Assembly (NCBI GenBank): GCA_020351835.1
Contig: CP070669.1
Span: 441,824 to 488,408 of the forward strand
Source: Nitrospirota bacterium
GTDB taxonomy: Bacteria > Nitrospirota > Thermodesulfovibrionia > Thermodesulfovibrionales > BMS3Bbin05
DNA: 46,585 bases
Reading direction: 5' to 3'
Shown here: positions 32,156 through 44,797 of the stretch, one piece after another
Position numbering within the stretch: position 1 is the first letter of the stretch
Layout of the letters: every line of letters begins with the position of its first letter
Made by a program: the position numbers and the translations under genes
Notes under the pieces: generated by a model
What the model saw: the letters and a program-made list of their open reading frames with translations, nothing else
The model's database searches: none
What the model was told of the DNA's origin: nothing

Positions 32156-32953
32156 TTACGCCGGCTTATCCTTTAGTAGCTGCAAAAAGCCCTGTATCGT
32201 GGTCAATTTTCTTTCGGACTGAGTGTAGAGCCTGGAAGAGAATATCGCTGTAGCCGCATGTCCCGCAAGCAGGTTGAACAGCTCAAAATCCACATTTGTG
32301 AACTTCTCTTTTTGAATGAGAAGAGAATAGATCACAATAACACCTATTACATGCTCCTTGATCTTTAACGGTATACAGACCATAGGCTTCTCAAAGTCTA
32401 TCTCGTCCGAATATGATATCTCCTCAGCGAAATAGCTGTCGCCTTCTTTGGAGACCCTGCCTATTATCCCCTGTCCAAGTGCAACAGAAGGTATTTCAGT
32501 ATCATAAATGCCCTCAGATTTCACAGATATAAGTTCGTTAGTCTTCTCATCCATTATCATTATAGAGAACTTCTCGGCGCCTATCAGGTTAATCACTATC
32601 TCAATGACTATTTTAAGCACCTCTTCGAAATCCAGAGTGGAGTGAAGCTGATAGCTGGCAACGTACAGGTTTGCGAGGTTATTGTTCTCCTCTTCCACTT
32701 CAACATACTTTGTGGCAAAGTCTTTGTTCTCAGCCTCTACTTCCTTGTATCGTTCCTTCAGAGAGGTCAGTTCATCATCCAGCAGCTTTATCCTGTCCTC
32801 ATACAACTTGACCTTTGCATCATCCGAAGTTTGCTTGAGGGTTTCCTCCGCTTCGGCAAGTCGATACCTCAGTTTCTCGTTCTCCTTGAGAAGTTCCTTT
32901 GTGAACTCCTCTCCTTTACGGAACATCTGTAAGAATTCATCATGGCTTTTCAT
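32156..32953 (-). CDS. coiled-coil GAF-domain protein
   Basis: A 265-residue protein. Residues about 5-95 form a long charged coiled coil (LLKENEKLRYRLAEAEETLK, then DELTSLKERYKEVEAENKDF). A GAF domain follows (about 100-245: ASYQLHSTLDFEEVLKIVIE, then GAEKFSIMIMDEKTNELISV, then GQGIIGRVSKEGDSYFAEEI). There is no kinase or cyclase output. It lies between cheB and cheY near the end of the operon. It may be a ligand- or phosphate-sensing adaptor for the array; the GAF ligand cannot be read from sequence. A second GAF protein opens the operon. Confidence 0.85.
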   Translation of the reverse strand: MKSHDEFLQMFRKGEEFTKELLKENEKLRYRLAEAEETLKQTSDDAKVKLYEDRIKLLDDELTSLKERYKEVEAENKDFATKYVEVEEENNNLANLYVASYQLHSTLDFEEVLKIVIEIVINLIGAEKFSIMIMDEKTNELISVKSEGIYDTEIPSVALGQGIIGRVSKEGDSYFAEEISYSDEIDFEKPMVCIPLKIKEHVIGVIVIYSLLIQKEKFTNVDFELFNLLAGHAATAIFSSRLYTQSERKLTTIQGFLQLLKDKPA

Positions 32954-32977: not shown

Positions 32978-34066
32978 CTATTTTCCCTTAAACAAACTCA
33001 CGAACTCATCCGGTATACTATGCAGCGGCCTTACCAGATCAGCGGCACCGCTGTTTATTGCCTCACGCGGCATCCCGTAGATAACCGCCGTCTCTTCCGA
33101 CTCAGCTATAGTATAACCGCCTTTCTTCTTAATTTCCAGCATCCCCTTCCTTCCATCATCTCCCATTCCGGTTAGTATAACACCAACCGCATTCTTTCCG
33201 AAACTCCCGGCCACCGACCTCATCATATGGTCGATAGAAGGCACATACTTATCTGTGCTGCGCTGCCCCTGCAGGACTGTATAATAATATCCTTTCTTCT
33301 TCTTCACTCCCATATGCAAACCTCCGGGACATATATAGGCCGTAGACGGTGAGATCAGATCGCCGTCCTTTGCCTCTTTTATCGTTATCGCCGATAACCG
33401 GTTCAGTCTTTCAGCAAGTGACTTTGTAAAGCCCTTCGGCATATGCTGACTGATAAGGATGGCAGGCTTGAACTTCGCTGGCAAGCTCGTAAGCACAAGT
33501 TGAAGCGCGGCCGGACCGCCAGTTGATGACCCTATCGCGATAACATCGGTCAGACGTTTCCCGGCAGGTGTCTCGGGCAGATCTTCTTTACGGGCTTTGG
33601 GTTCGGCTTCAACCTCGTCCATCTCGGATATACGCTCAAGGTTACCCCTTAATTTATTGAGGGACATCTTCTTAATATTAAGGACCTTTTCGAGCAGGTC
33701 GCTCTGTATGCTCCTCAGTTCCTCCGAGGCCCTGCGTGTCGGTTTTGCTATAAAGTCGACAGCACCGAGCTCGAGAGCTTTGAACACGGTCTTGGAATCC
33801 GAATATGAGCTAACCATTATCACGGGGGTCGGCTGCTCCTTCATTAGCCACCTGAGAAAAGCAAATCCGTCCATCTCTGGCATCTCAAAATCCAGCGTTA
33901 TGATATCAGGCTTGAAGCGAATGGTCTTCGCTATGGCATCATACCCGTCAATGGCGACCGCCAGGGTCTCTATATTGCTGTCGGTCTCGAGCATCTTCTT
34001 TATGGTCTGCCTGCTGAAGGCAGAATCATCCACTATCAAGACCCCTGTCTTCTTGGCGGGTGCCAT
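32978..34066 (-). CDS. cheB: CheB, protein-glutamate methylesterase
   Basis: A 362-residue adaptation enzyme. The receiver domain has phosphoacceptor D59 (ITLDFEMPEMDG), a linker of about 60 charged residues follows, then the esterase with the catalytic triad S181 (GSSTGGP), H208 (SQHMPKGF) and D304 (GMGDDG). It demethylates or deamidates receptor glutamates when phosphorylated by CheA. The start ATG lies 2 nt after the cheR stop. Confidence 0.96.
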   Translation of the reverse strand: MAPAKKTGVLIVDDSAFSRQTIKKMLETDSNIETLAVAIDGYDAIAKTIRFKPDIITLDFEMPEMDGFAFLRWLMKEQPTPVIMVSSYSDSKTVFKALELGAVDFIAKPTRRASEELRSIQSDLLEKVLNIKKMSLNKLRGNLERISEMDEVEAEPKARKEDLPETPAGKRLTDVIAIGSSTGGPAALQLVLTSLPAKFKPAILISQHMPKGFTKSLAERLNRLSAITIKEAKDGDLISPSTAYICPGGLHMGVKKKKGYYYTVLQGQRSTDKYVPSIDHMMRSVAGSFGKNAVGVILTGMGDDGRKGMLEIKKKGGYTIAESEETAVIYGMPREAINSGAADLVRPLHSIPDEFVSLFKGK

Positions 34067-34068
34067 AA

Positions 34069-34935
34069 TTAGCTACCTTTCCTTTCTCTTCCGGGCTTCT
34101 GGTAAACCATATCGTTCTTCAGGTGGTTCAATGTAAAGGCGGTCGAGATGTTTATCAGTGATTCGGCATGGCCTAACAGCAGGAACCCTCCGTCATTCAT
34201 CCGGTCATGGAACATATTAACCACTTTCTTTCTCGACTCAAGGTCAAAATATATCATAACGTTCCTGCAGAAGATCACATCAAAATGTCCCAGGAACTTG
34301 ATCTTAAACGGGTCAAGAAGGTTCATGTAACTGAAATTGACGAACGCTCTGACCTCATCTGAGATCTTATAAGTGGAATCACCACTTTTCGCAAAGTATC
34401 TCTTCTTATAGTATTCCTCAGTGGTCCTGAAGGAATTATTCCTGTAGACCCCTTCTCTTGCGACGTTAAGCACCCTCTGATTGATGTCACTCCCAACTAC
34501 CTCAACATCCCATCCCCGGAACCTTCCGCTCTCAATGAGCAGCATGGCTATAGTGTAAGGCTCCTCACCCGTTGAGCATCCAGCAGACCATACCCTGAAC
34601 TTTTTCAAGCCTTTTTTCTTTTCCTCCATCACTGCTAGTATCTCATCCGAAAATGCTGCCAGCTGGTTCTGCTCCCTGAAAAAATAGGTCTCGTTAACCG
34701 TAAGGATGTCCATTATAGCAGCCAGCTCTTCTTCTCGCCTTTTGTCGTACCTTAGAAACCTGTAGTAATCGCGGAAGTTCTCAAAGTGGTGTCCTGCAAC
34801 CCTTCTGGCAAGCCTTCTTTCAACTATATACTTGGACCCATCATCAAAGAATATTCCGCAATAGTCCCTTACAAGGTCCCTGATGAGCCTGAATTCCTGA
34901 TCCCCGAGGGGTATATTTATCTCACTTGTCAGCAT
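34069..34935 (-). CDS. cheR: CheR, chemoreceptor glutamate methyltransferase
   Basis: A 288-residue SAM-dependent methyltransferase. The N-terminal helical domain (about 1-80: LVRDYCGIFFDDGSKYIVER) precedes the catalytic fold with WSAGCSTGEEPYTIAMLL (SAM site), VVGSDINQRVLNVAREGVY and DVIFCRNVMIYF. No C-terminal TPR is attached. It overlaps the HEAT-repeat gene by 14 nt. It pairs with CheB for receptor adaptation. Confidence 0.95.
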   Translation of the reverse strand: MLTSEINIPLGDQEFRLIRDLVRDYCGIFFDDGSKYIVERRLARRVAGHHFENFRDYYRFLRYDKRREEELAAIMDILTVNETYFFREQNQLAAFSDEILAVMEEKKKGLKKFRVWSAGCSTGEEPYTIAMLLIESGRFRGWDVEVVGSDINQRVLNVAREGVYRNNSFRTTEEYYKKRYFAKSGDSTYKISDEVRAFVNFSYMNLLDPFKIKFLGHFDVIFCRNVMIYFDLESRKKVVNMFHDRMNDGGFLLLGHAESLINISTAFTLNHLKNDMVYQKPGRERKGS

Positions 34936-36904
34936 TCAGTGCTTCCTTTATAGAGTACTGGACGGTCGGGTCCTTCTCGTCCTCAAGCATCATTTCAAGT
35001 GAATCCCTTATCTCCGGTGTCATTTTCTTTCCGAGGACCTCAACTGCTATCTTTCTGGTAGCCCAATCCTCGTCCTTGAGGAAACCGATCATCCTCTCCT
35101 CCACCCCATCATAACCAGCAAGAGCGCTTATAGCCGTTCTCTTTATCTCCTCATCTTCGCTCTCTAACATGGGGAGCAGAGCTTCCCTGGCATCCTCAGA
35201 GCCTATCTTACCTATAGCTTCAATGGATGCGGCAACAACAAAACCGTTATCATCACCAAGGGACCTCATAAGCGGTTTAAGTGCCTTCTTATCGGGAACA
35301 ACACCCAGTGCCTTGGCTGCTGCTACCCTGACAGCTTCATCACTGTCCAGAAGAAGAAGTATAAGATCGTCTATTGCAACACTATCTCCTATCGCACCGA
35401 GTGCGTATGCGGCCTCTATCCTGATATCGGACCTTTCGTCGGTAAGGGCCACTTTCAGATATCTGATGTTCTCCGGGTCCCTGATCATGGATAGAGATCT
35501 GACCGCAGACCTTCTTACAGAAACATCGGCATCCTTTACCAGAAAACCTATTGATGAAAGCGCCTCAATGGCATTGATATTGCCCAGAATAAGGCAACAA
35601 TTCCTCCTGATCCTTACGTCATCGTCCGACAGCCCGCTGATAAGATCATCGGTCTTGATGCCTTCTTTTAACAACACAAGTGCATCGACCGCGGCTTCCT
35701 GTACATCCATATAACCATCCTTAAGAAGTGGCCTTATCAGAGCGGCCTTTGACGGGTCACCAAGCTTTGCCAGCCCCGTTGCTGCTGACCCTCTTACATG
35801 TCCGTCATCGTCACCCAGAAGCTCCTCGAAACGCCCTGAGAACTCGACCCTGCCGGTCTCAACTGCCACGTCAACTATGAACCTTCGCTGAAAGATATTA
35901 AGAGTATCGAACAAACCCATTATAAAATCTGGTGAGGCCCTGCCTATGAACACAAGCGCTTTCTTGATCTCATCTCTGAACTCCTCTTCAGATGTCATAT
36001 CAAGGAGGGGCTGCACGGCCTTTGGGTCTTTCATTATCCCCAGCATAAGTATTGCCGACAACCTTATGTCAGCTTTATTGCTCCAGGCAAACTTCAGAAG
36101 AACGTCGAAGGCCTCATCGCCAAGATAATTCGAAAGTTTACCGACGATGATATCCTCATCAACCCCTTTTTTATAGAATCTATTTACCGTCCTCAATACC
36201 TCCTCTTTGACGCTTCTTGATCCTGTCATCAAAAGAGGGATTATACTGTCAAGAGTATCCGGTTCGGCAAAGCATCCTAGAGCTCTAAGGGAAGGTTCCC
36301 TCAGGGTCTTGTTCTCAAGTGAGCTTATAAGGGGAGCTATCGCCTTCCTGTCACCGATCCTCCCGAGCGCGTCGGCTGCGGGATATGCGATCCACAGGTC
36401 ATCCCCTCCCAGTATCTCTATAAGGGCATCAACTACTGACGGCTCCTTTAGTTTACCCAGATGCTCAACGGCTGATGCCTTAACGTTCTCATCTTCATCC
36501 TTTAATGCGGTTAGCAAAAGCGGAAGAGCACGATCATCGGAGATCTCACCTATTACGTCTATAACGAACTTCCTTACATCATGGTTGTCCGTTTCAAAGG
36601 CCTTGAGAAGATCAGGTATAACTGTTTTCCCCAGAGAAACGAGCATGTCGATGGCGCTGTTCCTTGCCCCTGCATTATCTTCTATATAAAGCAGGGATAT
36701 AACGCCATCTATGTATTGATCGACCTCGAACTGTTGCTTCAGGATCCCGGTGGCGGTCTTCCTTACACGCCAGCTCTGATCCTTCATCGCCTCGATGAGA
36801 AATGGTATGTCGGCCTTATCGGCGCTTTCCTTTAGCGCATCTACTGCCTGCCTTTTCTCTTCGGTATTGTCACTTCCGAGTATCTTCTTCAGGTCCTTTT
36901 TCAA
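34922..36904 (-). CDS. HEAT-repeat protein of the chemosensory operon
   Basis: A protein of about 660 residues built almost wholly of HEAT/PBS-lyase-type repeats of roughly 30 residues. Examples: WRVRKTATGILKQQF, VDALIEILGGDDLWIAYPAA with DALGRIGDRKAI, and YALGAIGDSVAIDDLILLLL with SDEAVRVAAAKALGVV. About twenty repeats are visible and there is no other domain. The start is uncertain: TTG 36904 has GGAG 7 nt upstream, while TTG 36943 has AGGAGA at 4 nt; both lie inside the 3' end of cheW. HEAT proteins are scaffolds; position between cheW and cheR suggests a role in the array or in coupling it to an effector. HEAT-like proteins are also known in some Myxococcus chemosensory clusters. Confidence 0.88.
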   Translation of the reverse strand: MKKDLKKILGSDNTEEKRQAVDALKESADKADIPFLIEAMKDQSWRVRKTATGILKQQFEVDQYIDGVISLLYIEDNAGARNSAIDMLVSLGKTVIPDLLKAFETDNHDVRKFVIDVIGEISDDRALPLLLTALKDEDENVKASAVEHLGKLKEPSVVDALIEILGGDDLWIAYPAADALGRIGDRKAIAPLISSLENKTLREPSLRALGCFAEPDTLDSIIPLLMTGSRSVKEEVLRTVNRFYKKGVDEDIIVGKLSNYLGDEAFDVLLKFAWSNKADIRLSAILMLGIMKDPKAVQPLLDMTSEEEFRDEIKKALVFIGRASPDFIMGLFDTLNIFQRRFIVDVAVETGRVEFSGRFEELLGDDDGHVRGSAATGLAKLGDPSKAALIRPLLKDGYMDVQEAAVDALVLLKEGIKTDDLISGLSDDDVRIRRNCCLILGNINAIEALSSIGFLVKDADVSVRRSAVRSLSMIRDPENIRYLKVALTDERSDIRIEAAYALGAIGDSVAIDDLILLLLDSDEAVRVAAAKALGVVPDKKALKPLMRSLGDDNGFVVAASIEAIGKIGSEDAREALLPMLESEDEEIKRTAISALAGYDGVEERMIGFLKDEDWATRKIAVEVLGKKMTPEIRDSLEMMLEDEKDPTVQYSIKEALNADK

Positions 36905-37361
36905 GTACCGGCTCCATCCTTTCCTTTGATTCCTTAAGAGCAAGTTTCTCCTGCGCAGTTAGAATAGTGTCAGTATTGAGAAGCACTATTACTCTCTCAC
37001 CTCTTCTTCCCAGCCCTACGAGATATTCAGGCTTAAATCCCTTGAAGATACCCGGCGGAGCGCCGATCTCATCCGGCTCAAAGTCCAGTATCTCCCTCAC
37101 GGCATCTATATACAGGCCTACTCTTTGACCGCCTACCCAGACTATCATTATCCTTTCTCTGTCCGGTTTGCTCTCTATCTGGAAGCGCTTTCTCAGGTCC
37201 AGCACGGGTATGACCGCACCCCTGAGATTTATCACCCCCGCAAGGAACTCGGGCAGGTCAGGGATAGTAAAGATCTTGATAGGATTCAGTATCTCTACCA
37301 CACGGAAGATATCCACTCCAAACTCTTCCTCTCCTACACTGAATACAGCATATTGAGCCAT
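36870..37361 (-). CDS. cheW: CheW coupling protein (first of two)
   Basis: A 163-residue CheW. The paired beta-barrel pattern is clear: AVFSVGEEEFGVDIFRVVEI, then DLPEFLAGVINLRGAVIPVL, then GLYIDAVREILDFEPDEIG. The C-terminal 25 residues are highly charged. It links CheA to receptors. Its 3' end overlaps the start of the HEAT gene, which is read in another frame. Confidence 0.93.
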   Translation of the reverse strand: MAQYAVFSVGEEEFGVDIFRVVEILNPIKIFTIPDLPEFLAGVINLRGAVIPVLDLRKRFQIESKPDRERIMIVWVGGQRVGLYIDAVREILDFEPDEIGAPPGIFKGFKPEYLVGLGRRGERVIVLLNTDTILTAQEKLALKESKERMEPVLEKGPEEDTRK

Positions 37362-37388: not shown

Positions 37389-40238
37389 TCAAAGCTCATC
37401 GAGCTTTGACATCTTATCCCTTATGCTCATATAATCGACATCATCAGCAAGCGTGAAACCGGTATAGTTCCTGTCTATTGCTCTTAAAATGACGCTATTC
37501 TCCGCGTCCGAATCATCAAGTGCGAGGACAGCGTCCTGTACTTCCGTGGCATCATCATCGGAGACCGCCCGCCCGGCGCAGATATTGAACTCCGGGATCT
37601 CTTCAGAGAACTTAACAATCTTCAGACCTTCCTCCTTGAACTTCAAAGCCGTAGACTCCATAACACCGCCGGCGTCGAACTCGCCATTAAGCACAGCCTT
37701 TGCGACAGCATCCTGTCTATTTAAGAAATTATAGTGAGTCAGGTCATTAAGGCCGATGCCTGCTTCATTTAGCATTGACCTGGGAACTATATAACTTGAC
37801 GTTGAGTTTTTGTCACCGAAAGCAAAGGACCTTCCCTTTATATCCTTTATCTCTTTGATACCCTTGTCCGGATTCGCGATTATGGCCGAATGATGAAATG
37901 GCTTACCGTCTCTAAGGGCCTTTACAAGTACGCGCACACCACCTTCCTTATTGGCCCTTATGTACGTCGAGGGGGTCATGTAACACATCTGGGTAACTCC
38001 CTCAATAATGTCCGAGACAGCCTCATTAAGGTCCATAGCCACTTTCAATTCGAACTTCTTCCCCGTTCTCTTTGAAAGATAGGTCATCAGCGGGCTGAAC
38101 CTGTTGAACATCTCTGCAGGCGAGGCTAAAGGTACCACGCCGAACTTGATAACATCTTCCATCCGGACATCTACGAGATTAAACTTGCGCATCTCTGTCA
38201 TCATGAGTTCAGCATCTTCCTTCAGGTCACGCAGTGATCTGTTCAGCACAAATGCCCTTTCCCGGTTCTCTTCCGGAAGTTGCAATATGTTATTAATGGC
38301 CTTCTTGATATGTACTGCACCCTCTCTTTGCTCACGGAGAGCGACAGATATCTGGTGGGTATTGTCCGATACGGTATCCATCGCCTTTGCCATCTGAATG
38401 CTGCTAGAGGACTGCTCTTCAGAGGCGTTCTTGACCTGGGCCGTGATATCCCTGACCTTTTCCGTTGCCTCCATTATCAACGATGCACCTTTGGCCTGCT
38501 CCGAAGTTGACCGTGCTATCGATGAGATCATAGCTCTTACCCTGTCCATCGATTCGCTGACAAGCGCCACCGCCTTAGCCTGCTGTTCGGTTGCCTTTTC
38601 GATGGCCGCTGACATTTCGGACGACCTTTCGGCGCTCGCGACGATCTTACTTAGAGCATCAGAGGATTTCTCTGCTATTTTAAATCCCTCCTGCACTGAG
38701 GCCACACCATCCTCCATGGCTTTTACTGCATCTCCAACCTCTGTCTGTACTGATCCAATGAGGGCAGATATCTCCTGGGTCGAAAATGAGGTTCTCTCTG
38801 CAAGGTCCTTGATCTCATCGGCAACCACCGAGAACCCCTTACCATGTTCACCGGCCTGTGAGGCCAGGATGGCCGCGTTAAGTGCAAGAAGGGTCGTCTG
38901 TTCCGTTATCTCGTCTATCACGTTCAATATCTTTCCCACCTCTTCAGACCTGTCGCCAAGCCTTCTTACTATACCCGCAGTTCTTTCAACAGTCTTCCTG
39001 ATCAGTTCCATTCCGTCAATGGTCTTCTTCACCGAACTCAATCCAACGTTCGTGGCATCGTCAAGTACCTTGCTGGAAAGGGCCGACGACTCCTTTGCGT
39101 TCCTTTCAACTTCCTTTATGGAACTGTCAAGCTCTGACATGGCGGTGTTGGTGTCATCAGATGAAAGAGCAAGTTTATCCGCTCCAGCCGAGACCTCCTT
39201 GATAGTTATGGACATTTCCTCGATCGAGGCAGACGTGTCCTCCATCGCAGAGAAAAGGCTTAATGTGTTCTTACCTATCTGAGTAATGCTCGCGCTCATC
39301 TGCTCCATCGAGGCTGCGATCTCCTCTACTGTCGCGGCAAGGCTGTCAGAGCCCTCCGATATCTCAGAAATTGCTACGTTAAGTTCGTCGACCGACGATG
39401 ATATATTATCAATGGCCTCCCCCTCTACCTGCGTCCCTTCAAGCACCTTTCCGGACTCATTCTCAACCGTCGAAGCCACTCTCGATATCCTTGCAGAAAC
39501 ATCACTCACCCTCCCGAGGATTCCTGATATCGAACGCAGTGATTCTTTCATCGCGTCACTGAGCCTTTTTATCTCATCGTTGGACTCGATGTCCACAGGG
39601 AACGACAGATCACCATCCGCCAGCATCATTGCTGCATTTTCAATGCTGCCTATCGGCCTTATGACAACCTTTCTCAACGCGAATATCATGATCAGTGATA
39701 ACGCAAGGATCGCAAAGAACGATGCTATGATGCTAGTTATAAGCATCTTGTTCAACTGCTTTTTCTCAAAATCCTTGGGAACGGATATCTTGATCGCTCC
39801 GAGCATCGGTTTGTCAGCACCATGGCATGTCTGACACTCTGGTCTGTTTATCAGAGGCTTGTAAATTATGTGGGCATCATCCGTATCGTCGAGTATAACG
39901 TCTTTCTTTTTCATGAGCTGCGCCATGGCCTCGGCCTCTATAGTAATACCCATATTCGTGAATGCCTCGCGACCCGCACTGTTGAAGACGCCTATGTCCT
40001 CTACGCCTTTTGATGTCAACAGGTCATGAACCAATGCCCTGGTAACTTCGGGATCACCATTGAGCATCGTCCTCTCTATGCTCTTTGAGATCACTATCGC
40101 CGTTTCTTCGGCTCTTACATCAGTAACCGCATGCAATGAGTTCCTTTCCATCTTTATCACAACCGTGATAGCAAAGACACATCCAGCCAGCAGGATCACC
40201 AGTATTACCGCGAGCACCTTGTTCTCAAGCCTCTCCAT
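37389..40238 (-). CDS. methyl-accepting chemotaxis protein with c-heme sensor and C-terminal PhnD-like domain
   Basis: A 949-residue chemoreceptor. Order: TM1 (about 8-29), a periplasmic sensor (30-164) containing the c-heme motif C135-Q-T-C138-H139, TM2 (165-187), HAMP (about 188-245), then the long cytoplasmic signalling coiled coil with its conserved tip around residues 440-490 ([20 protein letters not shown]). After the signalling domain, from about residue 695 to the end, is a PhnD/phosphate-phosphonate-binding-like domain ([20 protein letters not shown], then [20 protein letters not shown]). No further membrane helix separates it, so it should be cytoplasmic. The heme site suggests redox or small-gas sensing. 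The fusion adds a second ligand input directly at the array. Confidence 0.92.
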
Positions 40239-41219: not shown

Positions 41220-43232
41220 TCAAACCGTCAAACGCTCCCTTTTCTTTATAAGCACATGCTCAATAATGGCCTCTACGTCAACCACCAGCACTATCTCATG
41301 TTTTCCTATCTCAGTTGCACCGGCAAATCCCTTGAGCCCCTTGAAATAATCGCCAAGTGATTTTATGACTATCTCATGCTGGCCAAAGAGCTCATCCAGA
41401 AGAAATCCCATCTTTCTTTCGGCAAAGCCCACCACTACAACATACTTAGAACCCTCGACATCATGCTCTATATCGAACACATCGCCAACATTAACTATAG
41501 GAAGCAGTTCTCCCCTTAGGTCAACCACCATCCTTCCCTCTATCGTCTGGATCATCTCATCAGTGACCTCGAACGATTCAGTGATGGATGTCAATGGTAT
41601 AGCGAACCTTTCCGCACCTACCCTAACCATCAACGCCTTAAGGATAGCAAGGGTTATCGGTAGAGTAACTGACATTGTTGTACCCATGCCAAGCTCTGAT
41701 TCTACCGTCACAAATCCCCCGAGGTTCGATATGCGGTCCTTTACTATATCCATGCCGACGCCGCGGCCGGAGACCTCCGTAACTGATTCAGCCGTAGAGA
41801 ACCCCGGCAGGAATATCATCTCCATGATCTCCCTGTTAGAGTAATCATCAGACAGTGCAACGAGCCCCTTCTCTATAGCTTTGCTCTTTACCTTTGCCAC
41901 ATCGATCCCGTTACCGTCATCTATGACATCAACGACAACATGATTACCTCGCTGGTAGGCCTTAAGAATTATTGTGCCCTCAGGGTCCTTGCCCCTCTTG
42001 ATCCGCTCTTCTTCATTTTCTATTCCGTGGTCTATAGCGTTCCTGACAATATGCATGAGGGGGTCAACCGCTTCTTCGGCCAGGAACTTATCTATATTGG
42101 TATCCTCACCGAACAGATTCAGGTTGATCTTCTTCCCGGACTGCCTGGAGTACCTTCTAATGATCTGAGCAAGCCTTGAGAATATCTGCCCTATCGGTAT
42201 CATGCGAATATTAAGCACCTGGTCCTGAAGGGCCGATACCCAGCGTTCAAGAGATTGCGCAACCTTATAGGTATCCACAATTAGAGGCTTGTATCCGTAT
42301 CCTTCGAACAGCTCCTGCCCTATCCTTCTAACAGCGCCCTTGGCAAGATTAAGCTCTCCGATAGTGTTAAGTATGCCATCCAGTTTATCTATATCAACTC
42401 TTACCGTAGATGAAATGCTTTTAATGGATGCGCTAGGGCCCTCCATCCTTTTTTCCGGTATCTGATCCGACCTGGCCGGCACCTCGGGCGTTTTCTCGGA
42501 CTCGGATCGTCCCGAAGCGGAAACGAGAGTATCCAGCTCTTCTCCTAGCTCATCCTGAAGGTCCTGAGCAAACATCGAACTGCCTATTATCAGATTGAAA
42601 CCTATATGGCCTGCAGGAACATCATCAGAGGTAGGCAATGTCGAGAGCAGCTCACCGGAACTCTTTATCTTTTCTGTCAGCTCAGACAAACGGATATCAA
42701 AATCATCCAGAGAGAACACTACCCTTACGGAATAAATATTGCTACCGTCCTTTATGTTAGCCTTAAGCCTGTGTTCCTCATACTCCGATAGAACGCTCAG
42801 GACCGAGTCGTCTATCATTCCGCTGAGATCAAGCTCGCTCTCTTTAGCCCCTGAACCTTTTGTGAACTCATCTATCTTATTCAGATGCTCAGCGACATCC
42901 TCTACGCTCTCCCCCTTGTCATCTTTGACCAGTCCTCTTAGGGCATCAATATTATGCAACAGGAAATCACAAAGGTCACCCGTTGCACCCATCTTGCCCA
43001 GACGAAGGTCATCGAGCAGTGATTCCAGCTTATGGCTGAGCTCTGTTATGCCCTGCAGTCCGAACAAGCCCGATAACCCCTTGAGAGTGTGCATATCCCG
43101 GAAAAGAGCGTTAACGCTGTCAGGATTAAGCTTCCCGCTCTCTATTGACTCCTGTATCTCCAAAGTAAGGTCCTGCGCGCTACCCAGCAGATCTTCAGCT
43201 TCACTTATGAACTCGTTCTTAGATGTGCTCAT
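41220..43232 (-). CDS. cheA: CheA histidine kinase
   Basis: A 670-residue chemotaxis kinase. P1 has the phosphorylatable H48 (RDMHTLKGLSGLFG); a P2-like segment follows (about 155-235: YSVRVVFSLDDFDIRLSELT); the dimerisation region P3 begins near SSTVRVDIDKLDGILNTIGE; the ATPase P4 has MHIVRNAIDHGIE, DDGNGID and GRGVGMDIV; P5 is CheW-like. The start ATG overlaps the cheY stop as ATGA. Phosphoryl acceptors are the two CheY proteins and CheB. Confidence 0.97.
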   Translation of the reverse strand: MSTSKNEFISEAEDLLGSAQDLTLEIQESIESGKLNPDSVNALFRDMHTLKGLSGLFGLQGITELSHKLESLLDDLRLGKMGATGDLCDFLLHNIDALRGLVKDDKGESVEDVAEHLNKIDEFTKGSGAKESELDLSGMIDDSVLSVLSEYEEHRLKANIKDGSNIYSVRVVFSLDDFDIRLSELTEKIKSSGELLSTLPTSDDVPAGHIGFNLIIGSSMFAQDLQDELGEELDTLVSASGRSESEKTPEVPARSDQIPEKRMEGPSASIKSISSTVRVDIDKLDGILNTIGELNLAKGAVRRIGQELFEGYGYKPLIVDTYKVAQSLERWVSALQDQVLNIRMIPIGQIFSRLAQIIRRYSRQSGKKINLNLFGEDTNIDKFLAEEAVDPLMHIVRNAIDHGIENEEERIKRGKDPEGTIILKAYQRGNHVVVDVIDDGNGIDVAKVKSKAIEKGLVALSDDYSNREIMEMIFLPGFSTAESVTEVSGRGVGMDIVKDRISNLGGFVTVESELGMGTTMSVTLPITLAILKALMVRVGAERFAIPLTSITESFEVTDEMIQTIEGRMVVDLRGELLPIVNVGDVFDIEHDVEGSKYVVVVGFAERKMGFLLDELFGQHEIVIKSLGDYFKGLKGFAGATEIGKHEIVLVVDVEAIIEHVLIKKRERLTV

Positions 43233-43600
43233 TTCTTAAGGGCTGCTCTAATAGCCTCCTGAAGCTCTTCGGCCTTGAAAGGTTTTGTTATATATGCCTC
43301 GGCACCGAGTGACATACCCCTGTCCCTGTCTTCCTCGCTTCTTTCTGTCGTCACTATGATCATGGGAATGTCCTTATAGGCCTCGTTGTTCTTTACGAAA
43401 CTTATAAGCTCGAGGCCGTTTATGTCAGGCATGTTGATATCTGTGATTATGAGATCGAAGGTCTCGGTGGGTAAGGCCTTCAGGGCCTCAAAACCGGTCT
43501 CTGCCTCAAAGGCATCAAATTCGTCACCGAGGTCTTCAATGACAGTTCGTATGAGGGACCTTGTAGTTGATGAATCTTCGACGATAAGTATATTACCCAT
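43229..43600 (-). CDS. cheY: CheY-like response regulator (upstream of cheA)
   Basis: A 123-residue receiver. Acidic pocket in IVEDSSTTRSLIRTV, phosphoacceptor Asp in LIITDINMPDINGLELI, Thr in MIIVTTERSEED and Lys in AYITKPFKAEEL. It overlaps cheA by 3 nt. The sequence is close to the CheY at the other end of the operon but differs in the loop after the acceptor Asp (MPDINGLEL against MPVMDGLKL). Confidence 0.95.
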   Translation of the reverse strand: MGNILIVEDSSTTRSLIRTVIEDLGDEFDAFEAETGFEALKALPTETFDLIITDINMPDINGLELISFVKNNEAYKDIPMIIVTTERSEEDRDRGMSLGAEAYITKPFKAEELQEAIRAALKK

Positions 43601-43693: not shown

Positions 43694-44797
43694 CTAGCCG
43701 TTCATCTCGGTAAGTCTTCTCTGCAGTATGGCCTTCTCCAATGCCATGCCGGCCTGAGTTATGAATATCTCCAATCCTTCAGATTCGGCGAACGGATCAC
43801 CGGATCCCAGGTTATCCACGTAAAGAAAGGCAACCACCCTTCCTTCAGCGATGATCGGGAACAGGGCGACCTCTGACGGCCATTTCCCTCCAAATACCCT
43901 TATCATGAACTCAGTACCCTCGTCCTTCCTGAGCACCCCCCGGTAAGGCTGGGCATTATCGATCACCTCTTTAAGGCTCGGGCTCTTATTTACATCGAGA
44001 ACTGTCTCCCTTATTTTCTCATCCGCCCTGTCTATCTCAAGGCCGAACTGTCCCAGCCCCGCCATTTCTTCAGGCCCGACCATAAAAAGAACGCCTCTTT
44101 GATACATATCACTGGCGAACCTCAGGATAAGCAGTGTTATCTCGGATGTTGAGTTAGGGAATCTTAGCTCCTGAGTAAGCGCCCTCAACGCTGAAAGGTC
44201 CTTTCTTACAGGCGCCGGCGGACTCTCCCAGTCCTCATCTCCTTCACTAACGTCAGTAAAGAAATCCTCATCGGGGGTAAAGCTTTGGTGTGCCGTCTCA
44301 TCATATACCCTTGCCCCCTCCATAAGCAGGTATTCAGGGCTCATACCTTTGCTTATCTCCCATCCACTATCCGGAAGATCTATCTTATCCCTCACATCGA
44401 GCTCATCAAGCTCGAACTGGAACTCTCCGTCCTCCCAAAGAAGCAGATTGTATACGACCTGCTCTATCCTCTTTCTGCCGATCTTATCAAGATGGTCCCT
44501 GTTGATAGCACCCATCTCCAGAATTATCTCGGCAATGGGTTTATCCGGCAGGTCTTTTTTGACAGATTCTATCATTGGGAACATCGAGTCCTTAAGAAGG
44601 CCGGCACTAACTAGGTCCTGGGAAATGTCACTTTCAAGCACATCGGATTCGGCGTTAACGACCAGGCCGTCCTTGAACAGGACCATGGCATTTCCGCTGT
44701 CCGACCGTATCAGCAAAGCGCCGGTCTTTTTACCGACACTGAGTATCTGAAAGATATCAGAGAGAGCGAGGTCCTCTAACCTGCCTATAAGGCTCAT
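43694..44797 (-). CDS. PATAN (DUF4388) plus GAF-domain protein, first gene of che operon
   Basis: A 367-residue protein. The N-terminal DUF4388/PATAN domain is about residues 1-155 (SLIGRLEDLALSDIFQILSV, then KTGALLIRSDSGNAMVLFKD, then YNLLLWEDGEFQFELDELDV). An acidic linker follows (about 170-195), then a GAF-like domain (about 205-360: EITLLILRFASDMYQRGVLF, then VALFPIIAEGRVVAFLYVDN). AAGGA lies 4 nt before the ATG. PATAN proteins occur with two-component and gliding/pilus regulators. It may be a target of the receiver proteins. The region 44798-45069 upstream is AT-rich and contains the operon's promoter, which I could not pinpoint. Confidence 0.87.
   Translation of the reverse strand: MSLIGRLEDLALSDIFQILSVGKKTGALLIRSDSGNAMVLFKDGLVVNAESDVLESDISQDLVSAGLLKDSMFPMIESVKKDLPDKPIAEIILEMGAINRDHLDKIGRKRIEQVVYNLLLWEDGEFQFELDELDVRDKIDLPDSGWEISKGMSPEYLLMEGARVYDETAHQSFTPDEDFFTDVSEGDEDWESPPAPVRKDLSALRALTQELRFPNSTSEITLLILRFASDMYQRGVLFMVGPEEMAGLGQFGLEIDRADEKIRETVLDVNKSPSLKEVIDNAQPYRGVLRKDEGTEFMIRVFGGKWPSEVALFPIIAEGRVVAFLYVDNLGSGDPFAESEGLEIFITQAGMALEKAILQRRLTEMNG

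Follow-up and report, generated by a model that had tools for sequence, protein, structure and literature searches.

Why should a membrane-bound chemoreceptor carry a binding-protein fold at the end of its polypeptide chain, and on which side of the membrane does this fold lie? The question is raised by a gene in a 46,585-nucleotide stretch of the genome of a Nitrospirota bacterium from the order Thermodesulfovibrionales (contig CP070669.1, positions 441,824 to 488,408), referred to below as the window. The coordinates assigned to the gene in a first-pass annotation, 37389..40238, are exact. The open reading frame is on the minus strand, with its ATG at 40238 and the stop codon at 37389–37391, and encodes a product of 949 amino acids in which Pfam recognizes both a heme sensor and a C-terminal PhnD-like domain. 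Judged by its domains, the protein is a multidomain chemoreceptor predicted to control CheA. It has the features by which chemoreceptors are recognized: a HAMP domain, two transmembrane segments, and genes for CheA, CheW, CheR, and CheB nearby.

Domain organization and membrane topology

All features of the receptor described here are encoded on the minus strand. The chain begins with the transmembrane segment TM1 (residues about 7–29, 40152..40220), which is followed by a periplasmic c-heme Cache/PAS-like sensor (residues 30–163, 39750..40151) and the second transmembrane segment TM2 (residues about 164–187, 39678..39749). The HAMP domain, matched by Pfam at residues 188–236 (PF00672, 39531..39677), leads into an MCP hairpin (residues 237–654, 38277..39530), in which the MCPsignal domain (PF00015) matches residues 414–569 with 145.5 bits against a cut-off of 34.6. 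The hairpin is free of proline between residues 214 and 655, and its kinase-control tip, LNAAIL at 453, is flanked by arms of 219 and 199 residues. According to the AlphaFold2 model and the alignment, a conserved helix (residues about 655–684, 38187..38276) and a low-confidence linker of variable length (residues 685–693, 38160..38186; pLDDT <50) connect the hairpin to the PhnD/PtxB-type binding domain (residues 694–949, 37392..38159).

Hydropathy windows above 1.6 cover only residues 3–32 and 162–196, which flank the CxxCH-bearing domain. No further membrane segment is detected by hydropathy after TM2, because all 19-residue windows starting past residue 200 have values of at most 0.98. Attachment of heme c takes place outside the cytoplasm, as is well established (PMC12889525), and only two hydrophobic segments exist; therefore, the sensor is periplasmic and the tail cytoplasmic. 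The first-pass annotation had placed the tail after the kinase-control domain without an intervening membrane helix, which agrees with the hydropathy profile. A membrane helix that would put the C-terminal domain in the periplasm was looked for and is absent after TM2, and a periplasmic C-terminus of the receptor is rejected.

Heme sensor and binding-protein tail

On the basis of sequence and model, the sensor belongs to the c-heme Cache/PAS-like family of GSU0582 and GSU0935, and a heme is predicted. The Pfam match to Mcp40H-20_sensor (PF21563) at residues 49–151 is modest, with 31.4 bits against a cut-off of 27. The CxxCH motif for heme c attachment, expected by the annotation at residues 135–139 inside the periplasmic sensor, is located there as CQTCH (39822..39836), between the two hydrophobic segments. 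It is invariant in all 32 aligned sequences, which comprise the window protein and 31 orthologs from other genomes with the same order of parts. Equally invariant (32/32) is Met58 (40065..40067), which aligns with Met60, the distal heme ligand of GSU0935 (PMC8396549). A likeness to heme-c receptors of metal-reducing bacteria had also been suggested, and GSU0582 and GSU0935 are indeed the best matches in both sequence (phmmer) and fold. The AlphaFold2 model of the sensor has a pLDDT of 85.6, and the structures 3b42 and 3b47 of GSU0935/GSU0582 provide the top three Foldseek matches (E about 1e-6), with low TM scores of 0.49–0.55 and a large rmsd. The crystal structures of GSU0935 and GSU0582 are domain-swapped (PMC3460858, PMC8396549), which may account for the low TM scores and large rmsd. 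Cytochrome c assembly proteins are encoded in the genome of the window.

The predicted heme could report nitric oxide instead of, or besides, redox state (PMC12889525, PMC8396549). GSU0582 and GSU0935 bind NO and CO, which displace Met60 (PMC8396549), and members of the same heme-Cache family (‘sCache_heme’) fused to signalling modules have NO-sensor properties (PMC12889525). However, ligand exchange in GSU0582 and GSU0935 is also coupled to redox, at −156 and −251 mV (PMC8396549), and the sequence of the window sensor fits both readings. Detection of nitric oxide rather than redox therefore has close to an even chance.

The structure of the tail was predicted with AlphaFold2 for residues 660–945 together with 32 relatives, and the model has a pLDDT of 90.6. 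Its best Foldseek match in the PDB is PtxB with bound phosphite (5o2j; E 1.9e-27, TM 0.87 by target length), to which it is 31% identical in the structural alignment, and it fits closed liganded PtxB better than open apo PtxB. Among solved structures, PtxB, ArrX, and PhnD are its nearest relatives. Phosphonate-bd (PF12974) matches residues 699–936 with 202.5 bits and an E of 9.1e-60. Domain search and predicted fold thus bear out the earlier description of the tail as about 255 residues resembling PhnD, and the possibility that its fold is unrelated to PhnD does not hold. Among NCBIfam models, the tail falls within TIGR01098, the broad phosphate/phosphite/phosphonate subfamily (122.1 bits against a cut-off of 112.05). 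By contrast, its score of 111.7 bits for the PhnD equivalog TIGR03431 is far under the cut-off of 261.1. A role of the tail as a phosphonate transporter component is rejected because of this low score, the cytoplasmic topology, and the che operon context.

The oxyanion pocket of PtxB is largely preserved, with departures at several positions. The oxyanion loop of PtxB, S124-T125-S126 (PMC5700983), corresponds to S812-T813-S814 of the window protein (37797..37805); within the family, Ser124 is kept in 32/32 sequences, Thr125 in 22/32, and Ser126 in 25/32. At the position of PtxB His155, 30/32 family members have His, and the window protein has Gln842 (37713..37715), which leaves its STS-H motif with the STS present and the His replaced. 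The phosphite-specific capping tyrosine is absent: the position of PtxB Tyr203 is occupied by Phe in 30/32 sequences, including Phe884 of the window protein (37587..37589). The positions of PtxB Tyr94 and Asp16 are mostly His and Leu in the family. In PtxB of Trichodesmium, the change of the cap from Tyr to Phe raises the Kd for phosphite from 0.17 to about 295 µM (PMC5700983). The ligand of the tail is probably not phosphite, because the cap is Phe and the window copy has Gln in place of His. From these residues, the tail looks like an anion binder whose specificity has changed, and the specificity of the window copy may depart even from that of its relatives. Given the departures of the pocket, especially through Q842, neither phosphonate nor phosphite should be presumed as the ligand.

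A narrower reading is that the tail is specific for one oxyanion of phosphorus or arsenic, be it phosphate, phosphite, arsenate, or a phosphonate, which it would detect in the manner of PtxB or ArrX to report the phosphorus or arsenic status of the cytoplasm. The identity of the nearest solved relatives and the retained STS loop are in line with it. However, the Phe cap and the residues His, Leu, and Gln at the positions of PtxB Y94, D16, and H155 in the window copy make it somewhat unlikely, as does the location of an unfused paralog in this genome, next to genes for sulfur transport instead of phosphorus genes.

Other proteins of the PhnD family are encoded in the same genome. The gene for a 548-residue tandem-PhnD protein immediately precedes those for an sCache-HAMP histidine kinase and an NtrC-type regulator (L180:6202-10808; C1 about 2033200-2037810), with a sulfur-transport gene (PF04143) and a PF03601 gene nearby. 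This system could be a sensor of sulfur oxyanions; a comparable PhnD-kinase arrangement with a sulfur-transport-like neighbor is present in L076. At a second locus of the window's own genome (L181:6670-9316), a PhnD-family lipoprotein is encoded directly upstream of a HAMP-PAS-GGDEF protein, a layout that suggests control of a diguanylate cyclase by a binding protein. Neither the PhnD-family gene before the kinase nor that before the GGDEF protein adjoins ABC permeases. AioX and ArrX are periplasmic PhnD-family proteins that partner sensor kinases, and the layout of these two loci resembles sensing of the AioX/ArrX style more than transport. The PhnD-family proteins encoded there are a plausible origin of the fused domain.

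Conserved chemosensory operon and its natural variants

The receptor gene lies within an operon of which all genes are on the minus strand. It is preceded by genes for a DUF4388 protein (43694..44797), a CheY-like response regulator (43229..43600), CheA with Hpt, H-kinase_dim, HATPase, and CheW domains (41220..43232), and a CheW with an N-terminal extension (PF01584, 40250..41155). Downstream are genes for a second CheW (36870..37361), a HEAT-repeat protein (34922..36943), CheR (34069..34935), CheB (32978..34066), and a GAF-domain protein (32156..32953). Assignments are from Pfam; comparison with relatives' operons identifies the DUF4388 gene as the conserved first gene and the HEAT-repeat and GAF-domain proteins as conserved members. 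The operon of relatives consists of DUF4388, CheY, CheA, an unassigned gene, CheW, and the fusion receptor, usually followed by a second MCP, CheW, HEAT, CheR, CheB, GAF, and CheY; the window operon lacks the unassigned gene and the second MCP.

The distribution of the fusion was determined in 61 Thermodesulfovibrionales genomes, the window's own and 60 from the same genus and order. The fusion is present in 34 of the 61, and the heme sensor and the PhnD domain are both kept in 30 of these 34. Orthologous CheA with at least 49% identity is encoded in 36 of the 61 genomes, 33 of which have the fusion. In Thermodesulfovibrionales, the fusion gene is the receptor gene of this conserved che operon. 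The relatives identified are Nitrospirota, including Thermodesulfovibrionales; elsewhere in the phylum, other families and classes also have fusions, and most of those retrieved adjoin che genes. In a scan of 84,980 species genomes, the MCP-PhnD fusions among the best 80 matches are all from Nitrospirota or from metagenome-assembled genomes matching them, and the matches from other phyla are shorter PhnD proteins without an MCP domain.

Natural variants show that both ends of the receptor can change. The receptor of L157 keeps the heme sensor and stops near or just past the linker, and thus lacks the PhnD domain. Neither a periplasmic nor a PhnD domain is present in the receptors of L158 and L159, which have a membrane hairpin. 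Receptors of L053, L072, L173, L176, and L177 combine a membrane hairpin with the PhnD domain and have lost the periplasmic domain; in L062, the heme sensor is replaced by Cache_3-Cache_2 and the PhnD domain is kept. Outside the operon, L070, L071, L169, and L170 encode receptors of about 640 residues composed of a membrane hairpin, HAMP, MCP, and PhnD domains. In receptors without a periplasmic domain, PhnD is the sole recognizable sensory domain. Since loss or replacement has affected each end independently among relatives in the operon, each end is separable, and the two appear to be separate input modules. Some lineages can do without the tail, since the ortholog L065 (7303-10140) has the STS oxyanion loop deleted and L157, from the same family, lacks the entire domain. 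The PhnD domain is rejected as an invariant part of the operon receptor because the CheA-positive L157, L158, and L159 do not have it. A soluble receptor variant in L051 is also rejected, since the gene is broken into two adjacent open reading frames.

Further arrangements of the PhnD domain were observed in the same material. A cluster of about 14 kb (L067:1771-15768) encodes two free PhnD proteins besides two MCP-PhnD fusions. An 809-residue protein with one predicted transmembrane segment followed by PhnD, lacking an MCP domain, adjoins CheY-like genes (L168:4760-7189), and tandem PhnD domains are fused to a DsbD-type membrane domain in a protein of 754 residues (L073:6338-8602).

The PhnD domain is under purifying selection and is conserved as much as most of the hairpin. 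The mean frequency of the commonest residue is 0.66 in the PhnD domain, 0.66–0.67 in hairpin segments 240–430, and 0.50 in the heme sensor. The dN/dS of the PhnD domain is about 0.06–0.20 in pairs with unsaturated synonymous sites; zero values in the pairwise table are saturation artefacts. The Spearman correlation with CheA distances (19 sequences) is 0.79 for the hairpin, 0.26 for the sensor, and 0.18 for the PhnD domain. The poor tracking of CheA by both input domains may reflect repeated re-specialization or shuffling.

These data bear on the possibility that the tail is no sensor but serves to tether or dock a partner protein or an adaptation enzyme, or is a folding vestige, and that only the periplasmic heme signals. 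The flexibility of the linker, the losses in L157 and L065, and the replaced pocket His of the window protein agree with such a role. It is nevertheless unlikely, because conservation and purifying selection are like those of much of the signalling hairpin, the pocket Ser and His are kept in 32/32 and 30/32 sequences, and receptors without a periplasmic domain retain the PhnD domain. That the fusion is an artefact of assembly or gene calling, or that the tail is truly periplasmic, is extremely improbable, and the assembly artefact is rejected, since the identical architecture recurs in dozens of independent assemblies and no hydrophobic segment lies past TM2.

Proposed inputs from both sides of the membrane

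We favor, with a probability of roughly 0.58, the reading that the protein is the main receptor of the operon and receives one input on either side of the membrane. The sequence lays out a path along which a signal would pass from the periplasmic c-heme sensor through TM2 and HAMP to the long MCP hairpin. On the returning arm of the hairpin, a short and probably flexible linker holds the two-lobed PtxB/PhnD-type domain, necessarily in the cytoplasm. The first input would be the redox state of the heme or the binding of NO through exchange of Met58, as proposed for GSU0582/GSU0935. The second would be closure of the cytoplasmic domain on a small anion, which may be an oxyanion of phosphorus or another element or an anionic metabolite. 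Because the hairpin arms are similar in length, the tail should be positioned near HAMP, where it could shift the balance between HAMP and the bundle and, hence, the activity of CheA. Rigid, lever-like coupling of the tail to the hairpin is doubtful, because the linker has low confidence and variable length. We infer dual sensing of redox and a metabolite in one receptor.

The window's genome, which is 96.9% complete and in one contig, encodes a full che operon but no flagellin. Flagellin is present in 11/34 genomes with the fusion versus 21/27 others (Fisher p 7e-4, phylogeny ignored), so that the fusion is rarer where flagellin is encoded, and PilT is encoded in all 61. Since flagellin is absent but PilT is present, the receptor may act on pili or on some other process instead of swimming. 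In the window organism, an output through type IV pili, or one that is otherwise non-flagellar, would be more likely than swimming. Swimming is also unlikely in most carriers of the fusion, for which pili or a different output can be inferred.

The receptor shares with GSU0935 and GSU0582 of Geobacter the TM-sensor-TM-HAMP-MCP order, a CxxCH at the equivalent place, and the distal Met. However, the Geobacter proteins are composed solely of sensor, HAMP, and MCP domain (PMC3460858, PMC8396549), whereas the window receptor adds the binding-protein tail. The tail has the two-lobed fold and STS loop of PtxB, PhnD, and HtxB, the ABC binding proteins for phosphite, phosphonate, and hypophosphite. 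Unlike these separate periplasmic proteins with ABC permeases, it is intracellular, fused to a receptor, capped by Phe, and encoded among che genes. The tie of a PhnD-family fold to signalling is shared with AioX and ArrX, and the genome has paralogs encoded beside sensor proteins; however, AioX and ArrX act in trans from the periplasm, and the window domain, if it acts, would do so in cis from the cytoplasm. The Helicobacter pylori protein TlpD is a soluble chemoreceptor with a ligand-binding CZB domain and similarly has an intracellular ligand-binding domain on an MCP hairpin, coupled to the kinase interface (PMC12871147). By contrast with the membrane-bound window receptor, TlpD lacks a periplasmic sensor, and its zinc-binding CZB has a different fold. 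No account of an MCP that carries a PhnD-like domain at its C-terminus was found in the open-licence literature, although domain databases may list the architecture.

Known PhnD-class binding proteins are free proteins of the periplasm, which contact receptors on the outer side. Because the fold is here fused to a receptor inside the cell, a ligand trap of the transport type seems to have been turned into an intracellular sensor domain. It can be proposed tentatively that the family arose early in the Nitrospirota che operon when the binding-protein fold was relocated to the cytoplasm to serve as a second, covalently attached sensor. The array would then weigh a heme signal from outside the cell (redox or NO) against an anion inside it and direct an output other than flagella. 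The natural variants with either end lost or swapped make it possible to distinguish independent signalling from coincidence detection by comparison. The conservation of the pairing across many Nitrospirota suggests that one receptor compares a redox or gas signal outside the cell with a metabolite inside, which bears on what the Thermodesulfovibrionales, represented here mostly by metagenome assemblies, steer by.
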